Origin: Cystobacterineae bacterium
GTDB lineage: Bacteria; Myxococcota; Myxococcia; Myxococcales; Myxococcaceae
Reading direction: 5' to 3'
DNA length: 38,826 bases
Assembly: GCA_009782175.1 (NCBI GenBank)
Contig: WRKR01000027.1
Coordinates: forward strand, 1-38,826
How positions within the stretch are numbered: the stretch's first letter is position 1; each line of letters begins with the position of its first letter. This document shows positions 21,134 to 38,826 of this stretch, piece after piece. Position numbers and translations under genes: made by a program. Below the pieces are notes generated by a model. That model was given only the letters and a program-made list of their open reading frames with translations. It was not told the origin of the DNA and searched no databases.

Positions 21134-22270
21134 TTATAGTGGTTTTAGCGTGGCTTTCACAATGGTTTCCACAATGTCTTTGGCGGCATGGGGTTTGGCC
21201 ACGGCTTTTTGTTGGCGGCGCATGTGGGCCAGGCGCTCGGGCGTTTGAAACAAGGCTTTGAGTTTAAACAGCAATGAGGCTGCGTCCACGGCTTTTGAGG
21301 CACAACCGGTTTCCAGCAAAAAATCCGCATTGCGCTCCTCCTGGCCTGGAATGGGGGACACCACAAGCATGGGCAGCTGCATGGCCAGGCATTCAGAAGT
21401 TGTCAGACCACCCGGCTTTGTCACCGCAACATCAGCGGCCGCCATCATCCTCTCAATGCTTCTCGTAAACCCCTGGGGGAAAACACGCCCTGGGTGGCGC
21501 GTTGCAATTTCTTGGAGTTTGCCCAGCAAGGCTTCATTGCGACCGGCCAACGCCAAAATTTGCACCTCTTCCATGGTTTTGGCCACATGCTCTACCAGGC
21601 TCTCAATGCCGCCCACACCAAAGCCGCCCGACATCATCAACAAAGTCCGCTTGTCCGGTGAAAGCCCCAACTCCAGGGCCGCCGCCTCGCGAGAGAGTGC
21701 TTGGCTAAACTGTGGCATAATGGCGATGCCCGTCACATGGATGTGCTCCCTGCCCATACCTCGCCCCTCAAGCCGGGCCGCCACCTCCTCGCTGGCAACA
21801 AAATAACCTTGCATATGCGGGTGCAACCAAAAGCCGTGTACATCAAAATCCGTCACGTGTACCCATACGGGGGGTGTTGGTTTCCCCTTTCGAAGGCGGC
21901 GTGAGAGCAACTCGGCCGGCAGAAAATGCGTGCACACAATGACGTCAGGAGCCAGGTGCGCCATTTCTTTTTTGAGTTTTTGTGTGTTGAGCCTCTCCAA
22001 CTGGCGGCGGAAGCGATTGAAGAGCGACTTGGGTGCCGCGTCCGTGTGCTGATAGAGATAGGACCAGACTTCAGGCGCTTTTTCTACGAGGCCCATATAG
22101 CCCCTGCTATAAAAATTGCGAAAGCCCTTGGATACCAAATCCATCACATCCACGTGCACCGCTTCTATGCCCGGCATTTGGGCCGCAGCCGCACACAGCG
22201 CCTGGGCCGCACGCAGATGACCTGCTCCAGCGGATACACTCAAAACCACCATTCGCAAAGGTTTTTCCAT
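21134..22270 (-). CDS. MGDG-synthase-like GT28 glycosyltransferase
   Basis: A 378-residue GT-B glycosyltransferase of the MGDG synthase/UgtP group, which transfers a sugar from UDP-hexose to diacylglycerol at the membrane face. The N-terminal SVSAGAGHLRAAQAL (about 11-25) is the GAGH(x)xAA signature of the MGDG synthase N-domain. The C-terminal domain has MMSGGFGVGG and the donor-binding AVTKPGGLTTSECLAM, followed by PIPGQEERN. UDP-GlcNAc-using MurG is a related alternative, but the N-domain fits MGDG synthase better. The ATG at 22270 has only a weak ribosome binding site. The 13-bp repeat array lies immediately upstream and may cover its promoter. Confidence 0.88.
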   Translation of the reverse strand: MEKPLRMVVLSVSAGAGHLRAAQALCAAAAQMPGIEAVHVDVMDLVSKGFRNFYSRGYMGLVEKAPEVWSYLYQHTDAAPKSLFNRFRRQLERLNTQKLKKEMAHLAPDVIVCTHFLPAELLSRRLRKGKPTPPVWVHVTDFDVHGFWLHPHMQGYFVASEEVAARLEGRGMGREHIHVTGIAIMPQFSQALSREAAALELGLSPDKRTLLMMSGGFGVGGIESLVEHVAKTMEEVQILALAGRNEALLGKLQEIATRHPGRVFPQGFTRSIERMMAAADVAVTKPGGLTTSECLAMQLPMLVVSPIPGQEERNADFLLETGCASKAVDAASLLFKLKALFQTPERLAHMRRQQKAVAKPHAAKDIVETIVKATLKPL

Positions 22271-22309
22271 GATGAATTGCTGTCTTTAATTAAAAAATAC
22301 GCTTAATTT

Positions 22310-22611
22310 AACAATAGAACTTAACAATATAACTCAATAACATGACTTAACAGTATGACTTAATAACATGAGTCAACAACATGAGTCAATAACAGAAGTC
22401 AATAACATGACTCAATAACATGACTCAATAACATGACTCAATAACATGACTCAAGAACATGACTCAATAACATGACTCAAGAACATGACTCAAGAACATG
22501 ACTCAAAAACATGAGTCAAAAACATGACTCAAAAACATGAGTCAAAAACATGAGTCAAAAACATGAGTCAAAAACATGAGTCAAAAACATGAGTCAACAA
22601 CAGAATTTAAA
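22310..22611. repeat. 13-bp tandem array carrying TGA(C/G)TCA, about 23 units
   Basis: From 22365 to 22598 there are 18 consecutive units with an exact 13-bp period, consensus AACATGA(C/G)TCAA followed by T, G, A or C. Seventeen contain the pseudo-palindrome TGACTCA (9) or TGAGTCA (8), its reverse complement; the unit at 22391 reads AACAGAAGTCAAT. Degenerate units extend left to 22310 with spacings of 13, 16, 10 and 16, and one follows on the right (22599-22611). C-type units cluster at 22404-22507 and G-type units at 22534-22598, as expected from stepwise duplication. The array lies between the end of the CoA-disulfide-reductase gene and the start of the GT28 gene. It is not coding: 13 is not a multiple of 3 and stops recur. 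Confidence 0.97.
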
Positions 22612-22677
22612 CCTTTTGGGCTTAAGGATATGATGGTTTCAACAGAGGGCAACCTTTATGAGAGTGTTTTAAGGGGT

Positions 22678-25146
22678 TTATATAAATAGGTTGACGTTGG
22701 CGTTTTCTGCACACTCCATATAAGAGGCCACACCGCCTATGCTGCATTCATCCAACAATTCTTCTCTTTTTATCCCCATCACGTCCATTGACATTTGGCA
22801 TCCCATAAATTCAACACCTTGCTCCAAGGCTTGGGTGCGCAAGGACTCCAGTGAATCGATGCCTTTTTCCTTCATGAGATAGCGCATCATTTTGGCTCCA
22901 ATGCCCAACATATTCATTTTGGAAAGTTTCAGCTTTAAGGAGTGAGAGGGAAGCATCCAGGAAAACATTTTGCCAAACAAATCCTTTTCTGCGCGAGGCT
23001 TTTTGGATTTTTTAATGACATTCAAACCCCAAAAAGTAAAAAATATGGTTACTTTCTTTCCCGTGGCAGCTGCGCCATTGGCCAACACAAAGGTGGCCAA
23101 AGCTTTGTCTAAGTCATCACTAAACATAATAAAGGTTTTGGCATTTTTTTCATTTGTCAACATGTTGGACATGCGCTGAGGCTCAGGGGTTTTCTTTTCT
23201 ATAACCACCGTAAACTGTCCTTTGTCGGAGGTGCCAGATATCCACATGTTGCCCGTAGACTTGCACCAAGCTTCAGCATCTTTAGGAAAGCCAGCATCGG
23301 TTGACATTATTTCAACACATTCTCCTTCGGCCATTTCATCCATCACCTTTTTCAGTTTGAGAATGGGGCCCGGACATTGCAGCCCGCAAGCATCTATTTT
23401 TGTTGTTTTCATGTCTTGAGTTCTTTTTTGTGGTTCAACAGCTGAAGCTTTTAAGTTTTCTTTGTTGAAATGCTGTTTTTTTCCTTCGGTTTTGATGGGT
23501 GCAACAGCCAGGGCATAGGTTTTATATCCACCCGAGAGGTTTTTTATATTTTCAAAGCCCCGCTGCGTTAATATTTGCAATGCAATATATCCTCGCAAGC
23601 CCACCTGACAATATATATATATGGGTTTGTTTTTGGGGATTTCATCCAAGCGTGTGCGCAATTCATCCAGCGGAATGTTCAATGCGTGGGGGATATATTG
23701 TCCGCTGGCCCGTTCTTCTCGGGAGCGCACATCCAAGAGGGTTATTTCTTTGGGGTTTAAGTCTGCTATTTCTCGCCATTGAAAGACGGGCATTCGTCCG
23801 TTGATAATGTTGGAGGCCACATATCCGGCAATGGCAATCGGATCTTTCGCGGAAGAAAACGGTGGTGCATAACTGTGTTCCACTTTCATCAAGTCAAACA
23901 CGCTGCCACCCAATTTAATTAACAAAGCCAGCTGATCCACGCGTTTGTCTACGCCTTCATAGCCTATGCCTTGCGCACCATATATTTTTCCAGTTTGAGG
24001 GTGAAATGTCAGCTTGATGCTCAAGGGTCTGCTGCCTGGATAATAGCCTGCATGGGAAGCGGAATGGGTGGTGGAGCTTTGATAAGGAATATTCAGTTGT
24101 TTCAGTTTTTTCGCAGCCAAACCCGTTGTGGCCACGGTCAGCTCAAACACTTTGGCAATGGCTGTCCCTATGGCGCCTTCATATTTTTCTATGTTGCCTT
24201 TCACCATGTTGTCGGCAACCAAACGTCCTTGTCTGTTGGCTGGGTTTGCTAAATAATTCAACCACGCTTTGCCTGTCAGGGGATGAGGAAATTCAATGGC
24301 ATCGCCCACGGCATAGATGTCTTTCACAGAAGTTTCCAAATATTCATTCACCCAAATGCCGCCGGTTTCACCTGTTTTCAGGCCGGCCCTTTTGGCCAAT
24401 GCGGTTTCGGGGCGCACCCCCATGGATAAAATAACCATATCCGCAGGAAGGGTTTTGCCGCTTTTTAGGCAAACGTTGAGCTTGCCGTCTTTCTGCTCAA
24501 AACGTTCAACGGTTTGTTCCAAATAAAGGTGGACTCCTTTTTCTGACAAATGGTGGTGCACATGTGAGGCTATGGAAAAATCCACAGGCGCCATCACTTG
24601 CTTTGCCATTTCTATCATGGAAACTTCCGCGCCTGCTTGATGCAGGTTTTCAGCCATTTCAAGGCCAATAAACCCTGCACCCACCACCACGGCTTGTTGG
24701 ACCTTGTGTGTCTGAAGATGGTTTTTGATGCGGTCGGTGTCCACCACATCGCGCAAAACAAAAACCCCTTCTAATTCAACACCTTCTAACGGTGGTTTGG
24801 CCGGAAAAGCGCCGGGTGAAAGCAGCAGTTTATCATATGTTTCAATATAGGTTTTGCCGTCTGCCCCTTGGACGGTTATTGTTTTTCCATGGCTGTCAAT
24901 GTGGATAACGGTATTTTCAACCCTGATATCCACATTAAACCTTTTTCCAAATGAAGCAGGGGTTTGCAGAAAAAGCCTTTCCCGCTCTTGGATGGTTCCG
25001 CCTATATAATAGGGCAATCCACAATTGGCATATGAAATATATTTGCCTTTTTCAAAAACAATAATTTCAGCATGTTCATCTATTCTGCGGATTCTTGCTG
25101 CTGCAGTGGCTCCTCCGGCGACGCCTCCTACAATTAAGTATTTCAC
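22678..25146 (-). CDS. CoA-disulfide reductase fused to rhodanese, TusA and DsrE-like domains
   Basis: An 822-residue four-part sulfur-transfer flavoprotein. Residues 1-445 are an FAD/NAD(P)H disulfide reductase (GGVAGGATAAAR, active-site Cys42 in SYANCGLPYYIGG, second nucleotide site VVVGAGFIGLEMAENL, and YAVGDA). Residues 455-555 are a rhodanese domain with Cys513 in YCQVGLRG. Residues 583-652 are a TusA domain with CGLQCPGP (Cys587, Cys591). Residues 670-822 are DsrE/F-like, with candidate cysteines 783, 801 and 812. All key cysteines are present. The same domain order is known in Firmicutes and anaerobes; it likely reduces CoA disulfide/persulfide and relays sulfane sulfur. The start is GTG at 25146, preceded by GGAAAGAGA. 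Homologues have been linked to polysulfide handling. Confidence 0.95.
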   Translation of the reverse strand: MKYLIVGGVAGGATAAARIRRIDEHAEIIVFEKGKYISYANCGLPYYIGGTIQERERLFLQTPASFGKRFNVDIRVENTVIHIDSHGKTITVQGADGKTYIETYDKLLLSPGAFPAKPPLEGVELEGVFVLRDVVDTDRIKNHLQTHKVQQAVVVGAGFIGLEMAENLHQAGAEVSMIEMAKQVMAPVDFSIASHVHHHLSEKGVHLYLEQTVERFEQKDGKLNVCLKSGKTLPADMVILSMGVRPETALAKRAGLKTGETGGIWVNEYLETSVKDIYAVGDAIEFPHPLTGKAWLNYLANPANRQGRLVADNMVKGNIEKYEGAIGTAIAKVFELTVATTGLAAKKLKQLNIPYQSSTTHSASHAGYYPGSRPLSIKLTFHPQTGKIYGAQGIGYEGVDKRVDQLALLIKLGGSVFDLMKVEHSYAPPFSSAKDPIAIAGYVASNIINGRMPVFQWREIADLNPKEITLLDVRSREERASGQYIPHALNIPLDELRTRLDEIPKNKPIYIYCQVGLRGYIALQILTQRGFENIKNLSGGYKTYALAVAPIKTEGKKQHFNKENLKASAVEPQKRTQDMKTTKIDACGLQCPGPILKLKKVMDEMAEGECVEIMSTDAGFPKDAEAWCKSTGNMWISGTSDKGQFTVVIEKKTPEPQRMSNMLTNEKNAKTFIMFSDDLDKALATFVLANGAAATGKKVTIFFTFWGLNVIKKSKKPRAEKDLFGKMFSWMLPSHSLKLKLSKMNMLGIGAKMMRYLMKEKGIDSLESLRTQALEQGVEFMGCQMSMDVMGIKREELLDECSIGGVASYMECAENANVNLFI

Positions 25147-28082: not shown

Positions 28083-28229
28083 AATGACGCCTTATGGTTA
28101 TAACGAATTTTCGGAAAACAAACCTAGTGTGCCATTCTCAAAGACGCAATGAGAGAAAAGCCAACCCGCGTTTCCTTTCTCATTTATTTGATTGTTATTC
28201 ACGCTTTTATTTGGTGTATCATCCTCCTT

Positions 28230-29450
28230 ATGCGATATTTATTGCCTCTGCTCTTTGTTGCCTCCGCCATCGCTTGCGGCGGCCCAAGTTCTGAGCCTCC
28301 TGTGGATGTGATGGTGCTGGCCCCCAATTCCAATGGGGTGTTTTCACCTCAAAAAAAACGTCTCACCACCATTTCCAACATAGCCAAGCTTGAAGGAAAC
28401 ATTGCCAACTTCATCGGCAATGCGCAGATGTTTCTGGATGAGGACGACCCTGCACAGCAATCAGCACGTACCATAGAGGAATTTAAGAAGGCCATTTTTC
28501 AAAACAAAGGCAGCAGCGTTCGCGCACAGTTTATTGAGAAAGACGGCGCACTTTGGCCTGCGGATTTTCACTCCTGGGCCATGACAACGGCCTATTGGAA
28601 CCTCGAGCAGGCCTTTCTCTATTTCCAGCAGATGTATGACGGTCGAAGCACCAAAGAGCTTTTGGAGCTTCCTGTCTATTATTGGTTGGACACCAATGTC
28701 CAAAGCGTGGACCCCAAAGAAAGCAGCACAGACAATGCTTTCTATTGGGCAGGCGGCTTCAGGCTCATGGGTGTGCTTCCCTTCAAAGACTTCCAAACCA
28801 TCCCCATGTCCATCAACTTTGGCGTGATGGCCCATGAATATGCGCATTTTGTTTTTGATTCCCGCGTCGGTTCTTTTGAGGCCAGAGATGGCCTGCCCGC
28901 CAGCCTCTTGGCTGCGATGAATGAAGGGCTGGCTGACTTTCATGCTTTTGGCGCCACGCGAAGGCTCGACGGCAAGGGAACGGTGAATTTTCTGGGGTGG
29001 ACCATTGATATGCAAGACGCGATTGCGGCACGTGATTTTTCCGCCAACCAATGCATGTATCAAGACTTATATCTCGCATTGCATGGGCTTCCCACGGAAA
29101 CCTTCAGGGATGAATATGCGGCCCATTATCTCGTGGGCACTTTGTTGGCTTCAGCCTTTTATCATGCAGCCGAGACGCCAGAGGATTTTGATATTCTTGC
29201 CAAATCCATCATCAATGCCTATAGCAGTGACGACCTTGAAAGGCCTGGCATTCAACAACTTTATCTCAAATATTCCAACGAGGTCTCTCTTCAAACGGTG
29301 GCCGAAGTTTTCTTAAGCCACATCCCCTCGGGCAGAGACGACTTGTGGTGCAAAGCCTGCAACCAATTGGTGGGCCGCCTTCAAATTAATGCAACATGTC
29401 CAGCCAACTGCTCCAACTATAAAAAACCACAGTGTCCTTCCATCCATTAA
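28230..29450 (+). CDS. Predicted lipoprotein metalloprotease (HExxH gluzincin type)
   Basis: From the ATG at 28230 the 406-residue product starts MRYLLPLLFVASAIACGG, a lipoprotein signal with Cys16 as the probable lipidation site. The middle carries VMAHEYAHFVFD (His202, Glu203, His206: HExxH) and 26 residues later NEGLADF with Glu232, the spacing and sequence of a gluzincin third zinc ligand. I do not recognise the wider family, and the family call rests on these motifs. The C-terminus is Cys-rich, with five Cys after residue 375. A start at 28149 would add a second hydrophobic stretch and hide the lipobox. Neither start has a clear ribosome binding site. The gene overlaps nothing and is followed 2 bp later by an exported protein gene. 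Confidence 0.75.
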   Translation: MRYLLPLLFVASAIACGGPSSEPPVDVMVLAPNSNGVFSPQKKRLTTISNIAKLEGNIANFIGNAQMFLDEDDPAQQSARTIEEFKKAIFQNKGSSVRAQFIEKDGALWPADFHSWAMTTAYWNLEQAFLYFQQMYDGRSTKELLELPVYYWLDTNVQSVDPKESSTDNAFYWAGGFRLMGVLPFKDFQTIPMSINFGVMAHEYAHFVFDSRVGSFEARDGLPASLLAAMNEGLADFHAFGATRRLDGKGTVNFLGWTIDMQDAIAARDFSANQCMYQDLYLALHGLPTETFRDEYAAHYLVGTLLASAFYHAAETPEDFDILAKSIINAYSSDDLERPGIQQLYLKYSNEVSLQTVAEVFLSHIPSGRDDLWCKACNQLVGRLQINATCPANCSNYKKPQCPSIH

Positions 29451-34256: not shown

Positions 34257-35407
34257 AGCGTTTTATTCCGCTCTCTCTTGTTTTCTTCGCCCTCTCCCTG
34301 TCCATGGCTTGCGACCTGCTTTGGAAAAAAGAGACGGACAATACAAAATCCAGGCAACCCGTTTTCCCCGTAGAGTTGGCACCTCTGCAGGAGCTCAATC
34401 TCCCCTTTGTCATCCAGGCCGTGGGTTCTGTTGAGCCTTATGAAATGGTGCAAATTACTTCGCGCGTGCCTGGCGCTGTTGACAAAGCCAATTTTTTAGA
34501 AGGCCAATATGTGAAGGCCGGAGAGCTCATCGCCGAAATTGACATCAAACGCTATCAAGTTTCCGTCAAATCCGCAGAGTCCACCCTTCTGCGCGCCAAT
34601 GCCACCAAGGCAGAAACCAAAGCCGCTTTGGAGCGGCGTCAACAAGCGCAAAAAAACTCACCAGGGCTTATTTCAACAGAAGAGCTGGAGCTCCACAACG
34701 CAAAATATTCAACCGCCCTGGCAGACCAAATGTCTGCCCAAGCCGCGCTCGAGCAAGCCAAACTCAACTTGAACGATGCCTATGTGAGAGCACCCTTTGA
34801 AGGTATACTCCAGTCACGCACTGTGCAAACCGGCCAATATGTGCAACCGGGACATATTTTAACCACCCTGCTTCGGAAAAACCCCATTTTGGTGCGCTTT
34901 AAAGTGACGGACAGCGAAGCCTCCCACATCAAAACGGGAATGAAAATTTCATTCAACGTCGGCAACAACCTCCCCCCCTTGGCGGGTGAGGTTTTCTTCA
35001 TCGCCTCTTCCGCGGATGTTGTCTCTCGCATGGTTCTCGTTTCTGCCAAAATTGACAATGTGGAGTCCAAGGATATACCCCTGGGCTCTTTTGCCAATGT
35101 CACTGTCTCCGTCGGCAACAAACCCAACTCCCTCGTCATCCCTCAAATGGCCATCCGCCCCACGGAAAGAGGGTTTCTCGCCTTCGTTGTGGAAACCATG
35201 GTGGAAGACAATGTAGAAAAAAAAATAGCACGAGAACGTGTCTTGCAACTTGGACTTCGAACGCCTGATGGCCTCGTGGAAGTCCAAAAAGGACTTCACC
35301 CCAATGAGATGCTCGTCATCCGCGGAGCAGAAGCTCTCAAAGAGGGCAGCCTCGTCTCTGTGCAAACCACAGCTCCCCCAGCTGCTGAACTGAAAGCCAT
35401 GCCATGA
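34253..35407 (+). CDS. RND efflux periplasmic adaptor (membrane fusion protein), lipoprotein
   Basis: A 384-residue adaptor that joins an inner-membrane RND pump to the TolC-like channel. The signal MKRFIPLSLVFFALSLSMACD has a lipobox (SMAC), so it is probably an inner-membrane-anchored lipoprotein like AcrA. The barrel-sandwich/lipoyl half motifs are TSRVPGAVDKANFLEGQYVKAGELIAEID and LNDAYVRAPFEGILQSRTVQTGQYVQPG; the helical hairpin lies between (about 95-170). ATGA overlaps connect it to genes on both sides. Confidence 0.93.
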   Translation: MKRFIPLSLVFFALSLSMACDLLWKKETDNTKSRQPVFPVELAPLQELNLPFVIQAVGSVEPYEMVQITSRVPGAVDKANFLEGQYVKAGELIAEIDIKRYQVSVKSAESTLLRANATKAETKAALERRQQAQKNSPGLISTEELELHNAKYSTALADQMSAQAALEQAKLNLNDAYVRAPFEGILQSRTVQTGQYVQPGHILTTLLRKNPILVRFKVTDSEASHIKTGMKISFNVGNNLPPLAGEVFFIASSADVVSRMVLVSAKIDNVESKDIPLGSFANVTVSVGNKPNSLVIPQMAIRPTERGFLAFVVETMVEDNVEKKIARERVLQLGLRTPDGLVEVQKGLHPNEMLVIRGAEALKEGSLVSVQTTAPPAAELKAMP

Positions 35408-38400
35408 ATTTGACAGAAATCAGCGTGCGAAAGCCTGTCCTTGCGTGGATGATAATGGCTTCGACTGTCTTGTTCGGCATTGTTGCGCTCACCCGCATTG
35501 GCATCAGCCAGTTTCCAGATGTTGACTTTCCAACCATCAACGTCTCCCTTATATGGGAAGGTGCTGCTCCAGAAGCCATGGAGCGCGATGTGGTCGAGCC
35601 CATTGAAGAAACCGTCATGCAAGTTGAAGGCATCAAAAGCCTGACATCCGTTTCCAGACAAGGCTCTGCCAACATTGTCATTGAGTTCGACCTCAAACGC
35701 AACATAGATGTTGCCTTGCAGGAAGTTCAAACCAAAGTGGCACAGGCACAGCGAAGGCTGCCTACGGATATGGATCCGGCCATTGTCTCAAAATCCAATC
35801 CCGAAGACATTCCCATCATCTGGCTTGGGCTTTCTGGCCCCTATTCCGACCAGGAGCTCTCGGATTATGTGCGCTATCGCGTCAAAGAGCGCCTGCAAAC
35901 ACTCAATGGTGTCGGAGAAATTTCTATTGCCGGTGCTTTAGAGCGAAACATTCGCGTTTGGATTGATGCCAATGCGCTGGATAGGTTTCAGGTAACCGCA
36001 GCAGACGTCATTCGGGCTATAGGCGAACAACACATCGAGTTGCCTTCGGGGTATTTGGAAACACCAGGCCGGGAAATCAGCGTCCGCGTTATGGGGGAGG
36101 CCTTTGACTTGGAAACCATCGGCAACTTGGTCGTCCGAAAAGTGAGCGGCGCTCCCATTTATTTAAAACAGGTTGCCCTCGTTGAAGATGGTTTTGAGGA
36201 CCAGCGCGTCATGGCCCGTGTCAACGGAGAGCCTGCAAAAGGCATGGGCATTCGAAAGCTGCGCGGAGCCAATGCTGTGGCTGTAGCCAAAAGCATTAAA
36301 GCCGCCATGGTTGAGCTCAACGAAGAGTTCCCCGAAGGCATGAAGCTGGAAATTAATAACGACGCCACAAAGTTTATTGAAGATGCTGTGACGGATATTC
36401 GGGACGAGTTGGTTTTGGCGATTTTGTTGACAGCCTTGGTGTGCTGGCTGTTTTTAGGAAATTTTTCCAGCACGCTGAATGTCATCCTCGCCATCCCCAT
36501 GTCCCTTTTGGGGACGGTGGCCGTTATTTATTTTCTGGGCTTCACCCTCAACACCTTCACCCTGCTTGGGCTGTCGCTCGCGGTTGGCATTGTCGTGGAT
36601 GATGCCATTATGGTGATAGAAAACATTTTCCGCCATGCAGAGCAGGGAAAACCCAAAAAACGTGCAGCACTGGAAGGCACTGACGAAATTAAGTTTGCAG
36701 CCCTGGCCGCAACCATTGCCCTTGTCGCTATTTTTATTCCCGTCATTTTCATGGACGGCGTCATCGGCAAGTTTTTCTTGCAGTTTGGCGTCACCTTGTG
36801 TCTGGCCGTCATCTTCAGCTATGCCGAAGCCGTCACGCTGGCACCTGCCCGCTCTTCACAAATTCTAAAGCTCAAACACGCCAAGCAATCTGCCCTCAAC
36901 CGTTGGATAGACAAAACCTTCGCACGGTTGGAGCATATATATGAATGGCAACTTCGTCGTGCACTCAAAACACCTTATTTTATCCTGGCCCTTGCAACGG
37001 TGTTGTTGCTTGTTTCAGCCTGGATTTTTTATAAATTGCCTTCAGAGTTTGTTCCACCTCAGGACCAAAGCCGCCTCATTATCCGCTTTCAAGCCTCCAT
37101 GGGCTCCAGCTTGAGCGAAACCAGCAAACTGATCAAACAGGTGGAGGACTTTATAGCGCAACGCGAGGAGACAGCGCGTGTTTATACCATCATCGGCGGG
37201 TTTACGGGGAATGTTGCAAGCGGCCAAACCTTTTGGACGCTCAAGCCGCGAAAAGAGCGCGCGCTCTCTCACAACGAGTTGGCCGCCATATTAAGGAAGG
37301 AGCTCAAAGTACCTGGGCTGCGCTTTTCTATACAAGATCCATCCTTAGCGGGTTTCACGGCACAACGAGGTTATCCCATAGAATTTTCTGTGCAAGGCAG
37401 CGACTGGGACACGCTGGTCGCGCAGGCTGAGCTTGTTCGGCAAAAACTCTCCGCTTCTGGCAAGGTGGTGGACTTGGACACGGACTATAGGCTTGGGCAA
37501 CCCGAGCTTCGCATTATACCCGACAGGAATGCAGCCATGGACAAGGAAATTCCTCTTTCTGATATTGCCAACACCATGAATGCCTTGGTGGGCGGCGTAC
37601 GTGTTGGAAAATTCAACTCCCAAGGAAGACGCATTGACATCCGCACCCGGCTGATTTCTGAGCAACGCACGCGAGGCGAAGATGTTTCAAACCTTCGTTT
37701 CCGGACGGCTTCCGGTGAGTTAATTCCTTTGTCCTCACTGGCCAGCACGGAAGAAAAACCTGCATTCCAAGCCATTACGCGCAAAAACCGTGAGCGCGCC
37801 ATCACCTTCTTCGCCAACCCCGCTCCAGGCCACTCTCAAGCTGAAGCCATCAAGTTGGTTGAGTCCCTAGGGCAAGAGCTCAAACAAGGCTATCGCGTCG
37901 TCTTTGGTGGCGCATCGACCACTTATAAAGAGTCTTTATATGGCCTCCTTTTCTCTCTCGCTTTGGGGATACTTGTCGCTTATATGGTGCTCGCCGCACA
38001 GTTTAACTCTTTTTTGCATCCGGTGACGGTACTCACCATCTTGCCTCTTTCAGCAGCAGGTGCTGCCTTCGCATTGTTGGGTTTTGGCATTACCATCAAC
38101 ATTTTTAGCCTCATTGGCATTCTCCTGCTCATGGGCATTGTGAAGAAAAATTCCATCATCCTCGTGGACTATGCCACTCAACAACGCGAAAAAGGGCTCA
38201 ATGCCTTTGAAGCCATGTTGTGTGCAGGCCCTGTACGCCTTCGCCCCATTTTGATGACTTCCATTGCCACCGGCATGGCTGCCGTCCCCGCAGCCTTGGG
38301 CCTTGGCGAAGGCTCTGAAACACGCCGCCCCATGGCCATTGCCGTCATTGGAGGCTTGGCGCTCTCCACCTTTTTAAGCCTCCTGGTGGTGCCGGCCTTC

Positions 38401-38499
38401 TATGTTGTTGCCGACAAACTCAAACAACGCCTCAGCAGAAAAGCAACTCAACACCCAGGGCTGGAGGAGGTAGAGCCCCCTCATACTCACCCTTTATAA
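35404..38499 (+). CDS. RND family efflux permease (AcrB/MexF-like)
   Basis: A 1031-residue inner-membrane drug/proton antiporter of the HAE1-type RND superfamily. The N-terminus MNLTEISVRKPVLAWMIMAST is the typical first TM segment. The proton-relay pair lies in GIVVDDAIMVIENI (Asp399, Asp400), equivalent to AcrB Asp407-408, and the TM10 Lys in GIVKKNSIILVDYA is present. Two large periplasmic loops and the RRPMAIAVIGGLALSTFLSLLVVPAFY end match the family. Hydrophobic drugs, detergents or lipids are possible substrates; the sequence does not tell which. It is the last gene of the operon. Confidence 0.95.
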   Translation: MNLTEISVRKPVLAWMIMASTVLFGIVALTRIGISQFPDVDFPTINVSLIWEGAAPEAMERDVVEPIEETVMQVEGIKSLTSVSRQGSANIVIEFDLKRNIDVALQEVQTKVAQAQRRLPTDMDPAIVSKSNPEDIPIIWLGLSGPYSDQELSDYVRYRVKERLQTLNGVGEISIAGALERNIRVWIDANALDRFQVTAADVIRAIGEQHIELPSGYLETPGREISVRVMGEAFDLETIGNLVVRKVSGAPIYLKQVALVEDGFEDQRVMARVNGEPAKGMGIRKLRGANAVAVAKSIKAAMVELNEEFPEGMKLEINNDATKFIEDAVTDIRDELVLAILLTALVCWLFLGNFSSTLNVILAIPMSLLGTVAVIYFLGFTLNTFTLLGLSLAVGIVVDDAIMVIENIFRHAEQGKPKKRAALEGTDEIKFAALAATIALVAIFIPVIFMDGVIGKFFLQFGVTLCLAVIFSYAEAVTLAPARSSQILKLKHAKQSALNRWIDKTFARLEHIYEWQLRRALKTPYFILALATVLLLVSAWIFYKLPSEFVPPQDQSRLIIRFQASMGSSLSETSKLIKQVEDFIAQREETARVYTIIGGFTGNVASGQTFWTLKPRKERALSHNELAAILRKELKVPGLRFSIQDPSLAGFTAQRGYPIEFSVQGSDWDTLVAQAELVRQKLSASGKVVDLDTDYRLGQPELRIIPDRNAAMDKEIPLSDIANTMNALVGGVRVGKFNSQGRRIDIRTRLISEQRTRGEDVSNLRFRTASGELIPLSSLASTEEKPAFQAITRKNRERAITFFANPAPGHSQAEAIKLVESLGQELKQGYRVVFGGASTTYKESLYGLLFSLALGILVAYMVLAAQFNSFLHPVTVLTILPLSAAGAAFALLGFGITINIFSLIGILLLMGIVKKNSIILVDYATQQREKGLNAFEAMLCAGPVRLRPILMTSIATGMAAVPAALGLGEGSETRRPMAIAVIGGLALSTFLSLLVVPAFYVVADKLKQRLSRKATQHPGLEEVEPPHTHPL

Positions 38500-38544
38500 A
38501 CCAGCTGAGGGACATGCTTTTAAATGAGGGGGGTTTTATTTTTT

Positions 38545-38570
38545 CCCCTCCGGGGGGGAGTTTGTTTTTT
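38545..38570 (+). terminator. Possible intrinsic terminator after the RND operon
   Basis: CCCCTCCGGGGGGGAG, with a C4/G4 stem, is followed by TTTGTTTTTT at 38561-38570, about 45 bp past the permease stop. A second possible stem (GAGGGG 38526-38531 with CCCCTC 38545-38550) overlaps it. The stem is short, so this is tentative. Confidence 0.4.
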
Positions 38571-38665
38571 CCCTTCCAGGAGGGGAGAGTCGCCTCCGGC
38601 GAAGGGTTTTTTTCGCCTTCAGCGGGGGGAGGTTGAGGTTCGCTTCGCTCACCTGACTCCGCTCC

Positions 38666-38705
38666 GCACAACATGAGAGAGAGCAAGCTCTCTCTCATGC
38701 TGTGC
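38666..38705. repeat. Inverted repeat 1, AA-centred
   Basis: The perfect core CATGAGAGAGAGC-AA-GCTCTCTCTCATG covers 38672-38699. One mismatch pair then separates GCACA (38666-38670) from TGTGC (38701-38705), so the stem extends to 19 positions. No T-tract follows. Confidence 0.95.
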
Positions 38706-38742
38706 TCCACTCCGTCCCGCCTCCCGGCGAGTCACTTTTTAG

Positions 38743-38762
38743 AGGCGAGCTAAAGCTCGCCT
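38743..38762. repeat. Inverted repeat 2, AA-centred
   Basis: AGGCGAGCT-AA-AGCTCGCCT is a perfect 9-bp inverted repeat with the same AA centre as its neighbours but a different stem sequence. Confidence 0.95.
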
Positions 38763-38776
38763 ACACTCCGCTCCAT

Positions 38777-38812
38777 GAATGACAAGAGAGAGCAAGCTCT
38801 CTCTTGTCATTC
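38777..38812. repeat. Inverted repeat 3, AA-centred
   Basis: A 17-bp perfect inverted repeat. Its inner part, AGAGAGAGC-AA-GCTCTCTCT, matches the centre of inverted repeat 1, while the outer parts (GAATGACA and TGTCATTC) differ. Confidence 0.95.
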
Positions 38813-38826
38813 CCTCCGCTCCGTTT

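Follow-up and report, generated by a model that had tools for sequence, protein, structure and literature searches.

The right-hand end of the window, a 38,826-bp stretch that makes up the whole of contig C27 in an assembly of 65 contigs and 2.70 Mb (G000; its two congeners are G001 and G002), is best explained by two double-hairpin (DH) modules successively inserted in the outer edge of a larger palindromic repeat, E1, which occupies the spacer downstream of an RND efflux gene, and we regard it as likely that these are non-coding, non-autonomous repeats nested in one another. This reading is built on copy number, on module boundaries given by empty and filled sites, on T-adjacent contexts used, where compared, in one orientation and on stem covariation. 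As the window is the whole contig, its right edge is an assembly break.

On scanning the window for perfect inverted repeats (stem of at least 9 bp, loop of at most 6), only three were found, all AA-centred, at 38672-38699 (palindrome 1, stem 13 bp), 38743-38762 (palindrome 2, 9 bp) and 38777-38812 (palindrome 3, 17 bp). These are exactly the stems and positions listed by the first-pass annotation, except that the extension of palindrome 1 to 19 pairs (38666-38705) contains one mismatch. Three such repeats were found in none of 2000 dinucleotide shuffles of the 177-bp stretch (shuffle mean 0.013), nor was a stem of at least 13 (0/2000), and 20 shuffles of the whole window gave 0-3 repeats each with a longest stem of 12. 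The common core of palindromes 1 and 3 and the CTCCGCTCC-like spacers described earlier are both present in the sequence. Also the structure is not unique in its genome, as GAGAGCAAGCTCTC occurs 12 times in G000 (reversed control 0) and a 327-bp query gave 104 local matches there, self included. A multi-copy palindromic mosaic running to the contig edge is borne out, but its units are not the three palindromes; they are two 83-nt DH modules, M1 and M2, inside a larger repeat, and the start moves left from 38650 to 38635 because the first module opens with a short hairpin (38636-38654) missing from the earlier list. An assembly artefact is disfavoured, since an M1-type module followed by M2 recurs in contig C25.

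Both modules are placed on the forward strand, as are the E1 parts next to them, the efflux gene, the hairpin mosaic behind it and the truncated E2 copy described below, and follow one plan, namely a head hairpin, CTCCGCTCC, a long AA-centred hairpin and CTCCRCTCCG. M1 (38635-38717, 83 nt) has its head at 38636-38654, then CTCCGCTCC, the long hairpin at 38666-38705 and CTCCACTCCG. In M2 (38741-38823, 83 nt) the head is palindrome 2 (38743-38762), followed by CTCCGCTCC at 38766-38774, the long hairpin at 38777-38812, which is palindrome 3, and CTCCGCTCCG. Between them lie the E1 foot hairpin CGCCTCCCGGCG (38718-38729) and, at 38730-38740, AGTCAC and five T from the left side of the E1 end hairpin, which is broken by M2 and reads GTCACTTTTTTTGTCTGGACAAAAAAAGTAAC when intact in other copies. 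E1 resumes with TTT at 38824-38826, its remainder lying past the contig end; past the same point C25 and C38 continue with TTTTGTCTGRACAAAAAAAGTAACC.

E1, in whose outer edge M1 and M2 sit, is a multi-copy inverted-repeat element. One-piece copies were found in C4, C38 and C33, the latter two with DH inserts; the C4 copy measures 555 nt end to end, and the ends are inverted, each being the hairpin GTCACTTTTTTTGTCTGGACAAAAAAAGTAACC or a similar one. The end hairpin was counted 63 times in G000, 11 in G001 and 12 in G002 (controls 0), and it was absent from the other 192 of the 195 genomes of the phylum searched. E1 covers 71 of 129 contig ends of G000 (129 of the 130 ends were counted, two N-reading ends being scored as misses), and nested E1/DH repeats at contig ends account for the poor assembly of this genome. 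Over the first 100 nt the arms are 75% alike in the C4 copy (65% for its whole halves) as against 98% in the E1 of G002, so that the C4 copy is the less palindromic. In C33, E1 adjoins a repeated small module consisting of a ~150-aa protein and then a protein that is HTH-like by reading; the same module is seen at the G000 ends C4_L, C14_R, C17_R, C46_R and C49_L and at locus L004. Contigs also break near genes of glycine-rich repeat proteins (GGLVG...NSYATG; C14_R, C29_R, C30_R, C32_R, C40_L and C50_R), which look like surface proteins from their sequence.

The foot CGCCTnCCGGCG precedes the E1 end hairpin at 41 of 41 outer edges, the edges themselves being matched by this pattern. Thirty-seven of them are empty and read GGTTTCGCC (26), GTTTTCGCC (5) or TTTTTCGCC (6), and four (C27, C33, C48 and C54) are filled, with an 83-nt insert before CGCC; this comparison defines the boundaries of M1. 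Another M1 copy lies inside the E1 of C33, again after a T before CGCC, which is the same kind of site used in the same orientation. In C27, C25, C38 and C21, M2 splits the end hairpin of E1 within its T run, which makes 4 M2-type modules at this place, with 9 more in site A of a second repeat, E2; in two of these nine the head is no longer a perfect palindrome, which implies that it is dispensable or decaying. By pattern, M2 was found 9 times in G000 and in neither congener. The head TCGCTTCGCTC with its spacer was found 21 times in G000, 14 times in G002 and not in G001 (controls 0). On dividing the 21 by location, E2 site B has 13, the E1 outer foot 4 and the right-hand foot 2 (one of which, on C2, has a degenerate right side), while single modules are found at the loop edge of an E1 hairpin (C24) and in tandem behind another DH (C28). 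The 11 distinct DH sequences among the 14 places of G002 are all at the E1 outer foot, where DH could be ancestral in this species. M1 copies that share this edge of E1 may have travelled along with E1 and not been inserted separately.

DH modules therefore occupy at least seven contexts, i.e. the E1 outer foot, T run, interior and hairpin loop edge, two places in E2, the right-hand foot and the tandem position behind another DH, and empty forms were found for all except the tandem. In the sites compared, the module comes after a T and keeps one orientation to it. The first-pass annotation had proposed looking for target duplications; no clean one was found at the filled DH sites, which have 0-2 extra T, or 3 in C24, and a target-site duplication for DH was set aside as not resolvable within T runs. 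No long terminal inverted repeat was seen in DH. C24 is a hybrid with an M1-type head and an M2-type long hairpin, which indicates that the DH halves recombine.

E2 is a MITE-like repeat of ~170 bp with inverted ends which hosts DH modules at other loci and has a truncated copy at positions 1-145 of the window. It is present in three species of the genus, with 56, 38 and 20 local BLAST matches in G000, G001 and G002, respectively, where one copy can give several matches. It is 99% identical over 126 bp to a G002 copy with unlike flanks. Its best match in G001 is 91% identical, as against 81% identity for aspS between G000 and G001; aspS had no full match in G002.

For the covariation analysis of the DH long hairpin we used 11 sequences picked as distinct alleles of three subfamilies. 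Here 9 of the 19 pairs are changed on both sides (32 cells, 91.7% of cells paired); the covariation score was reached in 0 of 500 shuffles and the number of such pairs in 3 of 500, and controls with the hairpin slid gave at most 0.121 against 0.394. In the DH head (5 sequences) 3 of 6 pairs covary, with the score reached in 10 of 500 shuffles. The E1 central hairpin has two alleles, with two-sided changes at 8 of its 28 pairs and 97.4% of cells paired (matched in 0 of 500 shuffles), but only 2 of the 11 copies carry the rarer allele, so this covariation may be one event. For all three hairpins, further pair types were no more numerous than in shuffles. Fold z-scores were -9.5 for 38500-38826 as RNA, -7.7 for 38629-38826 as DNA and -13.1, also as RNA, for a 756-nt stretch with the E1 copy of C4 (20 shuffles).

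The covariation of stems and the z-scores of -9.5 and -13.1 would also suit hairpins that are kept for an RNA task at gene ends, as bidirectional terminators or 3′-end shields, their mobility being secondary or ancient. Both bidirectional termination and 3′-end shielding have been proposed for some REP elements. This is the main rival to our reading, and the surroundings of the modules lend it some weight. The gene before them encodes an AcrB/AcrD/AcrF-type RND efflux pump (ORF 35404-38499; Pfam ACR_tran, 912.6 bits). About 34 bp past its stop codon, which ends at 38499, starts a GC-rich mosaic of terminator-like hairpins with T runs (~38533 to 38634; see for example CGCCTCCGGCG at 38591-38601) that forms the outer flank of E1. 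Several of its hairpins have UNCG-type loops by reading, and similar hairpin words in varying combinations precede E1 in other contigs, as they do in the two congeners. A loose scan of 38300-38826 gave 8 terminator-like sites against 1.1 expected, of which 4 overlap partly at 38538-38602, 2 fall within the efflux gene and the remaining 2 correspond to the inner part of palindrome 3 on both strands, where the ‘tail’ CTTGTCATTC belongs to the stem. The hairpins upstream of M1 have the form of intrinsic terminators, with a T tract directly behind a GC stem, and probably end the efflux transcript as judged from their sequence. None of the three palindromes has a T tract after its full stem, as noted in the first pass, and plain terminators were rejected for them; the earlier view that the region does not hold ordinary terminators is right for the palindromes alone, as terminator-like hairpins do sit between the efflux gene and the modules.

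Gene orientation also agrees with a role at gene ends. On simple ORF calling, 30 of the contig ends that carry E1 have an ORF of 250 aa or longer, and in 24 of these the stop side of the gene is towards E1; when ORFs from 100 aa upwards are admitted the figure is 45 of 70, with one end lacking an ORF. Yet such a 3′ bias is also expected from selection against insertions in promoters. The missing T tract after the DH stems, the position of the modules within other repeats and the lack of M1 at 37 of 41 E1 edges, where it must be dispensable, argue further against the RNA task, and we consider it unlikely as the main explanation. A described RNA family in the elements of this genus was rejected: for the window and nine loci the one Rfam match at gathering level was a tRNA that lies outside the element, and there was one tRNA for loci L118, L231 and L252, where the miRNA-type matches stayed below gathering scores and were taken as chance.

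Under the nested-insertion reading, DH, E1 and E2 would all be palindromic repeats, non-coding and non-autonomous, that occur nested within each other. DH would be moved as a hairpin by a trans-acting enzyme encoded elsewhere, presumably other than a recognisable Y1 transposase, and would land in T runs or at the hairpin feet of other palindromic repeats; either selection for the hairpin or repair templated by it may keep the paired arms complementary. The DH modules themselves may be little more than passengers. Apart from REP/RAYT, little is known of how bacterial repeats without genes spread. In this one small genome, where no Y1 transposase was found, nested insertions occur alongside covarying stems and both empty and filled sites, and this combination makes it possible to test the rule that insertion takes place beside T, in the T runs and at the hairpin feet of other palindromes. 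On searching the open-access literature by sequence strings and by theme, nothing on this element was obtained, only related themes.

It is somewhat less probable than the RNA task that no transposition is involved at all, the pattern having arisen by template switching at stalled replication forks and gene conversion between palindromes, which would also match the arms perfectly. The mosaic joins, the hybrid module of C24 and the lack of a clean target duplication fit this explanation, and template switching is described as a cause of quasipalindrome mutation (PMC7202029). It does not, however, lead one to expect discrete modules whose ends and orientation stay constant across seven or more contexts, nor an E2 copy that is 99% identical within the unlike flanks of another species.

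No mobiliser was identified, the family searched genome-wide being the Y1 transposases (RAYT/IS200-type, PF01797), which gave no match at E <= 0.001 in G000, G001 or G002; the same search was positive in 27 of the 60 genomes covered and in 5 of 14 controls. Translations at 15 contig ends that do not carry E1 were also read for a mobiliser and none was recognised; the proteins that could be placed resembled metabolic enzymes, surface proteins rich in repeats and small proteins of unknown kind. Many palindromic copies do occur between genes, as in REP families (intergenic position was judged at the loci read). Each DH unit, though, is made of two different hairpins in fixed order and not of two inverted REPs, and the check for a Y1 transposase proposed in the first pass came out negative, so that membership of REP/REPIN, which would need the enzyme, is not supported. 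Typical REPs start with GTAG, and palindrome 2 does so on the minus strand, where the M2 head reads GTAGGCGAGC-TTTA-GCTCGCC, but with no PF01797 match in three genomes a canonical REP/REPIN moved by a RAYT is very improbable.

Among known systems, neisserial intergenic mosaic elements and MITEs also form arrays of small repeats between genes, and E2 is MITE-like in its inverted ends; no transposase with matching ends was identified here and no clean duplication was seen, which separates the two cases. The BIME/REP and REPIN repeats known from enterobacteria and pseudomonads (PMC3116915 for REPIN; PMC2817692 for RAYT/BIME) are likewise intergenic, multi-copy, non-coding and non-autonomous palindromes in mosaic combinations, whereas here no RAYT was found, the double hairpins are asymmetric and nested in other repeats next to T, and the DH stems differ between copies with compensation. 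In mitochondria, palindromic GC clusters that merge and shuffle are reported for yeast (PMC4478555), and double-hairpin/RHE elements for sponges, of which two types differ by a few complementary substitutions (PMC2800124). These too are short (double) hairpins without genes, and they spread by an unsettled mechanism, as DH may, though DH is on a bacterial chromosome and the likeness is one of anatomy; also, within a sponge type the stems are described as conserved and the loops as variable (PMC2800124), in contrast to DH, whose stems vary with compensation. By analogy, the DH modules would behave like REP/BIME or mitochondrial GC-cluster elements.

We also looked for E1-like ends beyond the phylum. 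The 132-base end of the G002 E1 had no match in plasmids, and a 51-nt end-hairpin query gave 16 plasmid records at E <= 10 (8 covered to 80%) and 39 phage records, none of which was covered to 80% and which we took as chance A-rich matches. The end-hairpin pattern was present in 2 viral contigs, and counts over whole records were 19 in Caballeronia pNK81, 7 in Ilyobacter, 2 in Variovorax and 1 in Pasteurella (controls 0). In pNK81 of Caballeronia sp. NK8, eight inverted-end pairs enclose 477-500 nt (498-500 in 7 of the 8), a search with one copy of this ~500-nt element gave 22 places in the replicon, and one copy folded into a single hairpin (z -30.3). Its arms are on average 78.6% identical within a copy (8 copies) against 85.8% between copies in the better orientation; homogenisation of arms is therefore not supported there. 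Two-sided changes were found at only 8 of 165 predicted pairs (7 copies). The Pasteurella copy is a weak candidate by sequence, with arms 63-69% alike against 57-59% for shuffled Caballeronia arms. Ilyobacter polytropus pILYOP01 has seven copies of an AT-rich repeat with an E1-like end hairpin, in which GAGCGAAGCGAG, the complement of the DH-head motif CTCGCTTCGCTC, is exact in 4, has one change in 2 and is absent in 1. The Variovorax element also carries CTCGCTTCGCTC; used as query it gave 22 plasmid records, only itself being covered to 80%. Rfam RF02421 (Bp1_684) matched both outer ends of one Caballeronia E1-like copy with 49.5 and 38.0 bits, the former alone passing the gathering score of 44. 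This family is the Burkholderia sRNA Cand684, reported as RT-PCR tested and listed as validated (PMC3521395); it covers only the outer end and flank of the Caballeronia element and has no match in the scanned loci of our genus, so that in the loci scanned Rfam touches the E1-like class only through this sRNA family at its edge.

E1-like ends outside the phylum may reflect common descent, transfer or convergence, and the finding of such end hairpins in Myxococcota, Betaproteobacteria and Fusobacteria alike points to a broader class. We put forward only tentatively, and would sooner doubt than accept, the joint proposal that E1 is one member of a class of mobile, intergenic giant hairpins, so far undescribed, that crosses phyla (end hairpin GTnACTTTCTTTG-loop-CAAAGAAAGTAACCAAAGAAA, inverted ends, no genes) and that DH is a second, smaller mobile class which lands in such palindromes and whose stems stay paired as their sequence drifts.

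Elsewhere in the window, a 433-aa ORF at 28149-29450 had no Pfam match at E <= 0.001. A 13-bp tandem repeat array (ATGACTCAATAAC-like units; 20 overlapping register copies) is present at 22258-22647, directly outside a gene for an 822-aa redox/sulfurtransferase fusion protein (22678-25146).
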